A DNA stretch of 35,787 nt, taken from positions 1-35,787 of the forward strand of contig JAJPJE010000118.1 in NCBI GenBank assembly GCA_021324365.1, in the 5' to 3' direction. A program made the translations under genes and the position numbers. Below, in pieces: positions 9,759 through 35,787 of the stretch (positions are counted from its first letter, which is position 1; each line of letters begins with the position of its first letter). The stretch comes from Terriglobia bacterium (lineage in GTDB: Bacteria > Acidobacteriota > Terriglobia > Terriglobales > Acidobacteriaceae). The notes under the pieces were generated by a model, which was not told where the DNA came from, searched no databases, and worked only from the letters and a program-made list of their open reading frames with translations.

Positions 9759-10853
9759 TTATGCCTGAGGAGCGGTGTGAATGTGAACCAGCGGGCCGTG
9801 GCTAGGAGTCATCTGATCGTCGTCGATATCGGGATCGTTGTATTTGTTGAAGACCATGGCGCGCACTGTCGCGACCAGTCCGCCCAGCGACCCAAAGGTA
9901 TGATTGACGGCGCTGGCTTCGTAGCCGCTGTGTACCATGCAATTCGCGCATTTCGGATTGCCGCTTTCTCCGCCGTAATTCTCCCACTTGGTTTCGCGGA
10001 GTAGTTCTTCGTATGTATCGGCGTAACCATCCTGCATAAGATAGCAAGGTTTCTGCCAGCCGAAGATGTTGTACGCAGGCATGCCCCACGGTGTGCAGTT
10101 GTAATCGCGTCGGCCCATGAGATATTCGAGGAAGAGCACGCTCTGATTGAACCGCCAGTTCGATTTACGATTGCTCAGAATGTGGCGGAACAGCTGGCGC
10201 GTTTTCTTCTTGCTCAGGAAATGATCCTGGTCGGGAGCTTTGTCGTACGTGTACCCGGGCGAAAGCATCATCCCCTCTACACCCAGCTCCATCATCTCGT
10301 CGAAGAAGGCACGTACGCTTTTCGGATCGGCCCCGTCAAACAGCGTCGTATTTGTAGTGACACGGAAGCCGCGGCGGAGCGCTTCTTTCATTCCTTCGTA
10401 AGCTTTGTCGTAGGTGCCTTCGCGGCAGACCGAGAAATCATGATGCTCGCGTTGTCCGTCCATGTGAACGGAGAATGTCAGGTACTTGCTTGGCTTGAAC
10501 AGATCCAGCTTTTCTTTCAGCAGCAGTGCGTTGGTGCACAGGTAAATGTATTTCTTGCGAGCGATCAGGCCTTCTACGATCTCCTGGATCTGCGGATGCA
10601 TGAGCGGTTCGCCGCCGGGGATGCTGACCATCGGTGCACCACATTCTTCCACGGCTTTGAAGCACTGTTCGGGCGAGAGGTTCTGTTTCAGGATGTGTGC
10701 GGGATACTGGATTTTGCCGCATCCGGCGCAGGCGAGATTGCACCGGAACAAGGGCTCTAGCATGAGGACCAGCGGGTACCGCTTACGCCCTTTCACCTTC
10801 TGCTTCAAAACGTAAGATGCCACCGTCCACATCTGCGACACAGGTACTGCCAT
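9759..10853 (-). CDS. hpnH: Adenosyl-hopene transferase HpnH (radical SAM)
   Basis: The 364-residue radical-SAM enzyme joins the 5'-deoxyadenosyl group to diploptene, the first step in making C35 extended hopanoids. The cluster motif CNLACAGC (Cys38, Cys42, Cys45) has the C-x3-C-x2-C spacing. The following [16 protein letters not shown] and the SAM-binding [10 protein letters not shown] (around residues 79-90) are typical of HpnH, as is the C-terminal [11 protein letters not shown]. The protein begins [15 protein letters not shown], matching family starts, and GAGAGGAT lies upstream. The partner gene at 9344 follows after one base. hpnB lies about 8.5 kb away on the other strand, so the hopanoid genes are dispersed here. 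Confidence 0.95.
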
Positions 10854-30831: not shown

Positions 30832-32634
<1,803 letters not shown>

Positions 32635-32889
32635 AATCAGAAGTACGAAGAGAAAATTCAGATTGAAGAGTGGAAATTAGAGCGCAAAGCACGCCGTTGG
32701 TATATCCGCTTCGTAGTTATTGCCAATACTAGGGCAACTACCATCCGTGCGATTCCACTGCTGACCACCATCCAGATGTTTGCGAGGATGACTAACTTCC
32801 TCATACACTTTCAGCCGAAAGCTTCAAAATGCAAATCTCGCACAGTCCTCTTGCTTGAGCATCACATCCCATTGTGATCTCATATCCGT
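32635..32889. other. Intergenic region before the AraC gene
   Basis: I see no gene or clear regulatory element in these 255 bases. Confidence 0.4.
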
Positions 32890-33711
32890 ATGCCGTACCT
32901 GCGCTACCGGCCGTCGCCGCCGTTGTCCCACTTCGTGGAACTGTTCTGGTATTACGAAGGCGAAGCAGGCAGATCACACAAAAAAGAACGGCTGCTCCCG
33001 CAGGGATCGTCCGAGCTTGTTATCAATCTGCGTGAAGATGAGATGCGCATCTACGATCGGTATAGTCTCAGCCCGACAGAGAAGCTCTCCGGATCAGCCA
33101 TCTGCGGTCCGCATTCCCGGTTCTTCGTCATTGATACTGCCGAGCAGGACTGTGTAGCCGGTGCGCACTTCAAACCAGGCGGCGCTTTTCCGTTTTTCAA
33201 AGCTCCGTTCAGCGAATTTCACAACCAACATATATCCTTGGACGTTCTTTGGGGACGGGCAGCAATCCGTCTTCGTGACCGCCTCCTGGAAGAGTCGACG
33301 CCCGAAGCCAAGCTGCGGCGTTTCGAGCAAGTTCTCTTAGAGCAGATTTACCGACCTCTGGAACAGCACAGAGCCGTGAACTACGCTTTGGCGCGTCTGG
33401 GTTCCGGGTCGACCGCGATCGCCGACCTTTCCTCCGAGATCGGGCTCAGCACTCGCCGATTGACCGACCTCTTCAACCAGCAGGTTGGAGTCACGCCTAA
33501 GCTGTTCAGCCGTGTGCAGCGCTTTCAGAATGTGGTTCAGTCGCTTCCCTCCGAGCACGATATCGACTGGGCTGAGGTTGCCCTCGGTTGCGGCTACTAC
33601 GATCAGGCGCACTTCATTCACGACTTCCGCGACTTCTCGGGACTGAGTCCCAGCACCTACATGAAGTTGCGTACGGTACACGCTAACCACGTCCCCATCT
33701 TCGAAGATTAG
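32890..33711 (+). CDS. AraC family transcriptional regulator
   Basis: The 273-residue protein has an N-terminal effector domain starting MPYLRYRPSPPLSHFVELFW, typical of the AraC group with a short cupin-like domain (DUF6597-like), where GAHFKPGGAFPFF is visible. The C-terminal DNA-binding domain (about residues 165-265) has two helix-turn-helix units: IADLSSEIGLSTRRLTDLFN and VALGCGYYDQAHFIHDFRDF, then SGLSPSTYMKLR. It is followed by a VOC-family gene after 79 bases, an arrangement I recall as recurrent, so the VOC protein may be its target. ATG 32890 fits the family start though the ribosome site is weak. The inducer is unknown. Confidence 0.93.
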   Translation: MPYLRYRPSPPLSHFVELFWYYEGEAGRSHKKERLLPQGSSELVINLREDEMRIYDRYSLSPTEKLSGSAICGPHSRFFVIDTAEQDCVAGAHFKPGGAFPFFKAPFSEFHNQHISLDVLWGRAAIRLRDRLLEESTPEAKLRRFEQVLLEQIYRPLEQHRAVNYALARLGSGSTAIADLSSEIGLSTRRLTDLFNQQVGVTPKLFSRVQRFQNVVQSLPSEHDIDWAEVALGCGYYDQAHFIHDFRDFSGLSPSTYMKLRTVHANHVPIFED

Positions 33712-33790
33712 TTCGGATTTTTACAATACCGGCTTCCCCAGTCGCGCAAGAATGGCTGCGTGGCGAATCAATTCTGATTCGGAGGATGAC

Positions 33791-34258
33791 ATGACCAACA
33801 AGCCCAGCTACATTCCTGCGGGATATCACGCAATCACCGCTTATCTGATTGTGAAAGGCGCCGCCAAAGCCATCGACTACTACGTCAACGCATTCGGCGC
33901 GAAAGAACTCATGCGCTTCGAGGACCGTGGCCGCATCAGCCATGCCGAGTTGCAGATCGACGACTCGCACATCATGCTGGCCGACGAACATCCGGAGATG
34001 AACATTCGCGGTCCTCAGTCGCTGGGCGGATCATCCGTTGGCATCCTGCTATATGTGAAAGATGTTGACCATGTGTTCCGGCGTGCCGTCATTGCAGGCG
34101 GCACAGTCGAGCGCGAGGTGAAAGACCAGTTCTATGGAGATCGCTCCGGCAACCTCGTCGATCCCTTCGGGCACAAGTGGACCATCGCCACCCACGTGGA
34201 AGAGGTTTCGCCAGAGGAGATGAAGCGCCGGGCTGAATCCGCGATGCAGAGCACATAA
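33791..34258 (+). CDS. VOC family protein (PhnB/glyoxalase-like)
   Basis: The 155-residue protein has the paired beta-alpha-beta-beta-beta units of the vicinal oxygen chelate fold: AITAYLIVKGAAKAIDYYVN, then MRFEDRGRISHAELQIDDSH and the closing FYGDRSGNLVDPFGHKWTIA. It belongs to the PhnB-like subgroup of uncharacterised VOC proteins; metal ligands cannot be assigned with confidence. The start at 33791 follows GGAGGATGAC; an in-frame start at 33752 has no ribosome site. It is likely cytoplasmic and linked to the AraC gene upstream. Confidence 0.92.
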   Translation: MTNKPSYIPAGYHAITAYLIVKGAAKAIDYYVNAFGAKELMRFEDRGRISHAELQIDDSHIMLADEHPEMNIRGPQSLGGSSVGILLYVKDVDHVFRRAVIAGGTVEREVKDQFYGDRSGNLVDPFGHKWTIATHVEEVSPEEMKRRAESAMQST

Positions 34259-34279
34259 ATTTCAGAATAAAAACAGATG

Positions 34280-34306
34280 CCGGCAGAACGCCTGCCGCTC
34301 TGCCGG
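34280..34306 (+). promoter_or_regulatory. Hairpin between the VOC gene and the next gene
   Basis: CCGGCAGA (34280-34287) pairs perfectly with TCTGCCGG (34299-34306) around an 11-base loop, 22 bases after the VOC stop and 15 bases before the next ATG. It may end the VOC transcript or mask the next start. Confidence 0.4.
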
Positions 34307-34320
34307 TGTCTAATAAAGGG

Positions 34321-34878
34321 ATGCGTCGGTCCGTCAGATTCGCCGTCATTGCGGTTGCCTTCGGCCTGCTCTTCGCCGCCCTCGGCTGGTGGTATTACGG
34401 ACCGGTCACTTGGAGTTATCCACAATGGAAAAGCCAGGTCCGCTTGCGCGTCTGGCGAATCCTGGGTGATCCGCTGGATCATGAGGCGCGGCGCATCGCT
34501 GGCCCCGACGCGGTAAACTGCGGAACCTCCAATGGACGCGAAGACGACACTGCCCGTGTTACCGGCTGTATCTCCGACGCAATCGGCCACCATAGGGGTT
34601 TTAGAGCTCGATTCAGCTACTTCGCTGCCAGTTCCTATGGCGCTGAAGGATTGGCCGGCGCTCCCAACGGCCCGGTTTATGAGTTGGTACTGCGCCTCTC
34701 ACCTGTTTTCGCCGGAGAAGAAGTCTCACTCATTCGTCGCCGTTGCCCAGAACCTATGCGTGTTGCCATGAGGGAAGACAGCCCCATTCCTGGCTGCGCA
34801 CCCTTCGCGACTTCAATCAGCGATTACCAGGTTCTTCGCGACGATGGTGCCCCCAACCGTGCCTCTCTCGGTTACTAA
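34321..34878 (+). CDS. Membrane-anchored protein of unknown function
   Basis: The predicted 185-residue protein starts with a basic end and one membrane helix (FAVIAVAFGLLFAALGWWYY), then an extracytoplasmic domain with four scattered cysteines (NCGTSNG, TGCISDA, RRRCPEP, IPGCAPF) that could form two disulfides. The domain has aromatic- and Gly-rich strands (FRARFSYFAASSYGAEGLAG) and ends RASLGY. No family is recognised. The start is uncertain: ATG 34321 has AAAGGG directly against it, while GTG 34306 lies within a hairpin. It follows the VOC gene by 62 bases, but a common function is not implied. Confidence 0.65.
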   Translation: MRRSVRFAVIAVAFGLLFAALGWWYYGPVTWSYPQWKSQVRLRVWRILGDPLDHEARRIAGPDAVNCGTSNGREDDTARVTGCISDAIGHHRGFRARFSYFAASSYGAEGLAGAPNGPVYELVLRLSPVFAGEEVSLIRRRCPEPMRVAMREDSPIPGCAPFATSISDYQVLRDDGAPNRASLGY

Positions 34879-34950
34879 GACGCTAATCTCTCAGCGTACT
34901 AACTTGAGAGCGCGTTTCTACTGCCTGCAGAAAAACGCGACTGGCAGATG

Positions 34951-35030
34951 TTTTGAAGGGGCGCAGCTTTAGCTGTGCTGACCGAAGTTCTTTTTTATGA
35001 CATTCCCAGAGGACTTCAGTCCTCAAGGAA
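34951..35030. repeat. Dispersed double-hairpin repeat, copy 3
   Basis: Hairpin 1 is GGCGCAGC-TTTA-GCTGTGCT (34960-34979, with two G-T pairs). Hairpin 2 is GAGGAC-TTCA-GTCCTC (35009-35024), a perfect 6-bp stem. Both match the layout at 11561-11630, including the TTGAAGGGGCG lead-in, and the stems differ by paired changes. Confidence 0.7.
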
Positions 35031-35129
35031 TCAGAATGTTTCGATTTGTCCCCAACCCCGTTCACCGGACGACAGGAGTTTTGTGACAGCTCCATAAGTC
35101 GTGGGCAACTGGGGCCGGCCCTTTTGCGC

Positions 35130-35660
35130 CTAGAAATCGCAAACGTGCGGGCATCCGCGTGAAACGACAATCGAGTTCGGAACCAGGTAAAGGTGGCGTT
35201 TGATCAGATCTCGCCGGATCGGCGGAAGACCAATCAAGGAACGCGTGTGCGATTGGTATCGTCGCTGCGGACAGCCAGTGCGGAAATCATGTAGAAATTC
35301 TGGCCAGGTATCTTCGCCGGGGCCAAGGAAGATCGCATCAGCGTGTTGAGCAGCTTCCTCGGGCAACGACGTGACGTGCAGTCCGCCTAGCACCACGAAC
35401 GTTCCCTGACGGCGATAGTGATCGGCAATGCGATAAGCGCGAAACGCCGAGGTGATATATGCCTGGATGACAACCAGGTCAGGGGCATCGTCCAGCGAGA
35501 GTTTTTCTACGTGCTCGTCTACCAGTATCACTTCATCGTTTGCATCCAGATAGGCTGCCAGTGTGGCAAGTCCCAGGGGAGGGAACAGAGAGTACTTGAT
35601 CGGACGAAACAGCGGGCTGGTGGCTTCCGTCAGCGCGGGCAGAATCAGCTTCACCTTCAT
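35130..35660 (-). pseudogene. Truncated B12-binding radical-SAM gene
   Basis: The 176 residues form a cobalamin-binding Rossmann domain (VKLILPALTEATSPLFRPIK, LPPLGLATLAAYLDAND-like start, LVVIQAYITSAFRAYRIADH, VVLGGLHVTSLPEEAAQHAD, FLGPGEDTWPEFLHDF), then the linker of B12-dependent radical-SAM proteins and SRGCPHVCDF. A TAG follows directly. The cluster motif needs a third cysteine right after DF (C-x3-C-x2-C), and the whole barrel should come next. Reading past the stop in any frame gives no radical-SAM sequence, so the 3' part is lost or displaced, and the dispersed repeat lies a further 100 bases on. A short stand-alone B12-binding protein is a less likely alternative. The start is ATG 35660. 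Confidence 0.75.
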
Positions 35661-35680
35661 GGCGAACGAGAGTACATCAC

Positions 35681-35701
35681 GTACTTTATATTGTAAAGTA
35701 C
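35681..35701. promoter_or_regulatory. 21-bp inverted repeat, candidate operator
   Basis: GTACTTTA and TAAAGTAC, perfect 8-bp arms around TATTG, lie 20 bases upstream of the radical-SAM start and at the head of the rightward region leaving the window. The size suits a dimeric repressor. An embedded TATAAA on the minus strand could be a -10 element. Confidence 0.5.
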
Positions 35702-35787
35702 TTGTGATTTATGCACCTGCAGCGTTGGCAACTACCGTGAAACGGGTACTCATCGTACTGCTGTGGGTAAGAAGGATCAGAAAAACA
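35702..35787 (+). other. 5' region of a gene beyond the right edge
   Basis: Reading rightward, an AAGGATC ribosome-like site (35771-35777) ends about 10 bases before the edge, so a start codon probably lies at or just past 35787. A GTG at 35737 opens a frame MKRVLIVLLWVRRIRKT that stays open to the edge; it could be an alternative N-terminus. Confidence 0.3.

Follow-up and report, generated by a model that had tools for sequence, protein, structure and literature searches.

A B12-binding radical-SAM gene truncated at its third cluster cysteine, in the vicinity of a methylmalonyl-CoA mutase gene, is probably a recent and ordinary pseudogene

The window, i.e., the whole stretch of DNA analysed, is an entire contig of 35,787 bp from a 4.44 Mb draft assembly in 125 contigs (95.39% complete). 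The gene considered here (Table 1) starts 127 bp from the contig end, and the join at which it is cut lies 655 bp from that same end. In its open reading frame, a B12-binding domain is followed by a linker and by cysteines one and two of a radical-SAM cluster motif (RGCPHVCDF). The translated C-terminus, VVSRGCPHVCDF, is directly followed by TAG, hence two of the three cysteines of the CxxxCxxC motif are present and the stop codon sits at the third. The Pfam B12-binding family PF02310 matches residues 26-122 of the protein (1e-12, 48.4 bits vs. a cut-off of 32.1), and the radical-SAM barrel family PF04055 matches neither the 176-residue protein nor its place in the window. Two further genes separate the mutase gene from the hypothetical gene. 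Elsewhere, at 9759-10853, the window carries a complete radical-SAM gene with a DUF3463 domain, which we take to be HpnH-like.

Table 1. Coordinates of the genes and sequence features discussed at the locus.
Feature	Position	Strand	Remarks
Methylmalonyl-CoA mutase gene	30832..32634	+	600 aa, no B12 domain match
AraC-type regulator with DUF6597, intervening	32890..33711	+	
Glyoxalase/VOC family gene, intervening	33752..34258	+	
Hypothetical gene	34306..34878	+	190 aa, no Pfam match
Dispersed intergenic repeat	34931..35047	.	nine further partial own-genome copies, 71-94% identity; ends 84 bp from breakpoint
Truncated B12-binding radical-SAM gene	35130..35660	-	176 aa, ATG start, TAG at 35130-35132 replacing third cluster Cys
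Breakpoint	35131..35132	.	read along the minus strand, 35132 is the last base identical to the DNA of intact relatives
B12-binding domain (PF02310), predicted Rossmann fold	35295..35585	-	Pfam match and structure model
Remaining upstream flank to contig end	35661..35787	-	127 bp
Imperfect palindrome GTACTTTATATTGTAAAGTAC	35681..35701	.	20 bp before start codon; common to part of the intact relatives

Relatives of the gene were collected by a scan built on a four-sequence alignment, which confirmed at least 562 of them, the best 80 being retained. RGCP..CD is part of the scan patterns and the third cysteine is not, hence a copy cut after RGCP..CD could have been found. These best 80 of at least 562 share 72-83% identity with the fragment and come, according to their record titles, from Acidobacteria, Chloroflexi, Cyanobacteria, Bacteroidota, Actinobacteria, and others. 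In all 80, an in-frame TGC or TGT stands where the window has its TAG, which bears out the first-pass annotation in its reading that the frame stops at the third cluster cysteine; 77 of them end at 397-558 residues and three run off their contig. It may be argued that this exact position is nothing special: a breakpoint has to fall somewhere, and in this case the codon right after it is, by chance, a stop.

In a draw of 398 genomes of the same family, the gene is present in 22 at E <= 1e-40, the window's own genome included. The other 21 all keep the cysteine, and the barrel frame is open in 20. Together with genomes G046 and G060, and with weaker matches (43% identity or less) left out, they make up 23 close relatives, on which the comparison with the intact locus proposed in the first-pass annotation was carried out: the third cysteine is kept in 23/23, and a frame of at least 468 residues is open in 22/23 (six of these 22 being measured from the frame start, where the start pattern was not found). 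Locus L150 (genome G115) has a frameshift in its barrel, the remainder being readable in another frame, from a sequencing error or as a second pseudogene. None of 103 related records (the 80 best of at least 562 plus the 23, with at least two genes in both sets) is cut at the fragment's end. The fragment shares 69-84% identity with intact relatives over its 176 residues and has lost the barrel, i.e., it is clearly homologous to intact genes and carries a disabling change. The 60 relatives compared include no member of the same genus, therefore the state just before the break is not seen.

Some diversity is observed within the family. The close relative L069 (8001-9482) has an in-frame insert of ~34 residues with QN repeats inside its barrel, and a second subgroup (L011, L012, and L146-L159) displays a GCPQHC motif. 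A gene read from its sequence as uppS-like (undecaprenyl-diphosphate-synthase-like) precedes the radical-SAM gene in L011 and L150 and lies downstream of it in L010, from the first subgroup; a lipid link for the family is possible. No neighbour is common to the intact gene across the best 80 of at least 562 loci, and its neighbours differ from lineage to lineage. The commonest neighbour clusters, with 10 loci each among these 80, comprise a 694-residue protein and a protein that reads as response-regulator-like. A family spread over very distant phyla at 72-83% identity without common neighbours looks like one subject to horizontal transfer. For two intact relatives, no curated NCBIfam model reaches its cut-off; HpnJ and HpnR come first and are far below theirs. 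None of the literature matches listed names this B12 radical-SAM family.

At the join, the relatives read GA(T/C)TT(C/T)TG(C/T)TA(C/T) and the window reads GATTTCTAGGCGC. Identity stops after GATTTCT, i.e., after the first base of the cysteine codon, hence homology ends between 35132 and 35131. Beyond the breakpoint follow, in this order, 84 bp with no match at E 0.05 among the compared loci, the dispersed repeat, and the convergent hypothetical gene. The repeat contains an inverted repeat with 7-base arms (GAGGACT GA AGTCCTC), and it folds no better than its shuffles (z -0.50). A join mediated by this repeat was rejected, as the repeat stops short of the breakpoint by those same unmatched 84 bp. 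A foreign piece distinguished by composition was likewise rejected, GC content being even across the join in 600-base steps, as was a homing intron inserted at the conserved motif, since a search of 32500-35787 against Rfam gave nothing at E 1. A consensus scan of 34880-35787 found neither a terminator nor a sigma-70 site.

The first-pass annotation had suggested looking for the missing barrel across the genome. When the own assembly was queried with a relative's C-terminal part, the barrel of this gene was not found: the only matches are four other radical-SAM genes at 26-36% identity. A gene split in two with its barrel at another place was accordingly not found in this assembly. Recoding of the TAG by read-through or frameshifting was rejected, since the barrel part of three relatives matches the window at chance level only (E 0.45 or worse) in every frame.

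Upstream of the gene, the reverse complement of the palindrome GTACTTTATATTGTAAAGTAC matches it with 3 mismatches, and 100 shuffles gave no chance match at 3 mismatches or fewer. The start codon and palindromic site that had been described ahead of the gene are both real, although the palindrome, described as strong, is imperfect. The TTTACA within it may be a -35 element; the consensus promoter scan was empty. A 22-base consensus, AAGTACTTTACAATACAAAGTA, was derived from some of the very sequences that were then scanned with it. In four of six same-family genomes of the subgroup, it is found with 0-1 mismatch, 20-24 bp before the start; the two remaining genomes show 3 and 7 mismatches. The window has it 21 bp before the start, with 1 mismatch. 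Fourteen further intact loci were scanned, of which eight have 2-7 mismatches and six have no site (11 or more mismatches). Out of 2000 random stretches, two showed fewer than 6 mismatches; both are perfect matches and are probably real sites, since the pool contained them. The own genome contains no second TACTTTN7AAAGTA, and TACTTT...AAAGTA palindromes are observed upstream of the intact gene in L067, L069, L075, L083, L140-L142, L144, L145, and L012. L101, L111, L121, and L124 carry a gene for a small winged-helix-like regulator 1-4.5 kb upstream, and such a palindrome is not seen in these four loci; a link between this regulator and the palindrome is only a guess.

The mutase gene is convergent with the intact radical-SAM gene in three of six same-family regions fetched, a count covering these six regions, with 14 of the 21 family relatives outside. 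In L163, 200 bp separate the two stop codons; in L162 and L161, where other genes stand between, the distance is ~4 kb and ~7 kb, respectively. No mutase gene was found in the other three regions (L160, L164, and L165), the closest relative in the tree (L069, genome G117) being among them. For genomes G131, G158, and G032, the mutase match is placed on a different contig or at a distance of ~2 Mb. The hypothetical gene has distant homologues directly beside the mutase gene in G128 (37% identity) and G026 (27%), two of the 11 other genomes in which it has a match at all. The mutase's small B12 subunit passes the cut-off in 12 of 12 other genomes picked and has no match over the cut-off in the own assembly. 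Only pieces of it were obtained in G084 and G210, the latter with two partial matches (C160, 11903-12200). It lies within ~5.5 kb downstream of the mutase gene in five of the 12 (G128, G079, G006, G084, and G210), and elsewhere in the other seven. A gene named glycosylase-like from its sequence is found around the mutase or radical-SAM gene in five of eight relatives' regions and had no match in the own assembly, in a search run without a positive control. It is possible, though not necessary, that both genes are located right beyond the contig end, and the absent small subunit is perhaps an assembly gap.

Constraint on the fragment was assessed with 102 distinct N-terminal sequences (two duplicates dropped), using the 90 columns in which the sequences other than the window reach at least 95% conservation. 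The fragment has no violation in these 90 columns, as is the case for 50 of the 102 sequences, the window among them. This agrees with the earlier description of a well-preserved cobalamin domain, as does the PF02310 match. Ranked upwards from the least conserved of the 102 sequences, it is 63rd by mean leave-one-out score, and its terminal branch, 0.115 long, is slightly above the median (0.091; 72nd shortest of 102). Between the fragment and eight close relatives, dN amounts to 0.11-0.16, compared to 0.11-0.23 among those eight intact ones, and dS, wherever computable, is at least 1.7. The dN values are those of intact pairs, and constraint has not visibly been lost since the break, as would be expected of a recent one. 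Absent decay implies that, compared with these divergences, the break is recent, or that the fragment is constrained, or that the break is an artefact, and the constraint data cannot separate these three. Much of the conservation can also be argued to date from before the break.

Structurally, the AlphaFold2 model (39 sequences) predicts a Rossmann-type domain with a mean pLDDT of 85.5, with two stretches of low confidence, residues 11-30 (block pLDDT 63 and 67) and residues 161-176 (53 and 49). The best structural matches of the model are CysS (PDB ID: 9n1b), TokK (7kdy), and AprD4 (6fd2), with TM-scores by query of 0.48-0.66; the isolated TM0182 domain (4q37) is also among the best. By sequence, AprD4 is the best PDB match of one full-length relative (6e-10).

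Taken together, the fragment is probably a recent, ordinary pseudogene, i.e., a gene remnant left by a deletion or rearrangement. That such an event removed the barrel had been put forward in the first-pass annotation, and it is supported by the intact relatives, the common palindrome, the partly common neighbour, the failure to find the barrel, and the lack of decay. The ancestor would have been an intact radical-SAM gene of roughly 470-500 codons, cobalamin-dependent to judge from its domain, and in convergent orientation with the methylmalonyl-CoA mutase gene. In the variable DNA between both genes, a deletion or else another rearrangement would have removed codon 177 onward (~0.95 kb in L161-L163). 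The gene would thereby have been joined, after the first base of the third-cysteine codon, to intergenic DNA near the dispersed repeat, with TAG as the first codon across. We favour a deletion over other rearrangements, and any product would be functionless. Weighing against this reading are the nearby contig end in a 125-contig draft, the three of six fetched regions in which no mutase gene was found, and the slightly long terminal branch.

The main rival is an assembly error, because the gene starts so close to the contig end. The gene would then be intact in the cell, and the last 656 bases of the contig would be misjoined or would contain a local skip. This is unlikely on balance, although the short distance from the join to the contig end speaks for it and a fragment without decay is equally expected of an artefact. 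The own assembly also lacks the small mutase subunit and the glycosylase-like gene, and may break off inside a block of linked genes; that the small subunit lies near the mutase gene in only five of 12 genomes weakens this argument. A random misjoin would hardly place the gene beside a common neighbour in the common orientation, and it also has to contend with the hypothetical gene, whose distant homologues sit beside the mutase gene in G128 and G026, and with a promoter region resembling that of the relatives. A random misjoin is thus unlikely given the neighbour gene, and a local artefact is possible. An artefact by collapse needs a repeat across the join, whereas nothing longer than 16-24-base matches to 35100-35787 was found elsewhere in the assembly and the dispersed repeat ends short of the breakpoint; the base composition, moreover, is unchanged there. 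The join may exist in the cell as it does in the contig, and the common neighbour and promoter speak for this.

Two other explanations accept the break and give the fragment a function. A working cobalamin-only protein, for example a carrier or sensor whose domain would fold and bind cobalamin without the barrel, had been offered as the alternative to a deletion. The start codon, the promoter palindrome, and the domain are all present, the predicted Rossmann fold is confident, and no sign of relaxed constraint is seen. Furthermore, the isolated cobalamin domain of another enzyme, TM0182, has been crystallised, although it was solved without bound cobalamin, according to the portion of PMC13331322 consulted. 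This explanation is nevertheless improbable, and the corresponding claim is not supported: the truncated form is absent in the relatives (0/80 of the best of at least 562, and 0/23), residues 161-176 are modelled with low confidence, the conservation may mostly reflect the time before the break, and nothing found indicates a new role. Replacement by the fragment of the small B12 subunit of the neighbouring mutase would fit a mutase protein without a B12 domain match and an assembly without a small subunit. In most non-radical cobalamin enzymes, cobalt is bound through a histidine loop after strand 1 (PMC13331322, in the part consulted). This loop (DxHxxG) reads DGHDRG in 10 of 10 aligned small subunits, and the fragment has no histidine at the matching place, which makes such a replacement very unlikely, to the point that it hardly counts. 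The small-subunit profile TIGR00640 gives no match at the fragment at E 0.1, and none at E 1 in the NCBIfam scan. Besides, the assembly is 95.39% complete, and since the subunit lies shortly downstream of the mutase gene in five of 12 genomes, it may lie past the contig end. There is likewise very little to be said for a natural deletion that left a free-standing, promoter-driven cobalamin-binding protein with a new role, possibly beside the mutase, for which the assembly yielded no B12 subunit.

A gene remnant by itself matters little. If the pseudogene is real, a widespread and strongly conserved radical-SAM family would be dispensable in at least one acidobacterium-like genome, and a variable locus beside the methylmalonyl-CoA mutase gene would be indicated. 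Production and use of the 176-residue protein, if they occurred, would make it a naturally occurring case of a radical-SAM enzyme pared down to its cofactor carrier. The fragment looks, however, like an ordinary, recently broken gene, and not like a new kind of protein.

Several known systems resemble the fragment. The small B12 subunit of methylmalonyl-CoA mutase (TIGR00640) is a free-standing B12-type domain, as is the fragment, which sits near a mutase gene. Class 1 cobalamin-dependent radical-SAM enzymes (OxsB, TokK, and TsrM), as presented in the consulted part of PMC13331322, likewise have an N-terminal B12-type Rossmann domain before the radical-SAM part; in contrast to them, the fragment is devoid of the barrel, the third cluster cysteine, and the C-terminal region. 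AprD4, a radical-SAM dehydratase, is alike in structure. The TM0182 domain consists, as does the fragment, of the B12-type domain alone. According to its title and to the same part of PMC13331322, however, it is the N-terminal domain of a larger enzyme, whereas in the window the gene itself is cut.
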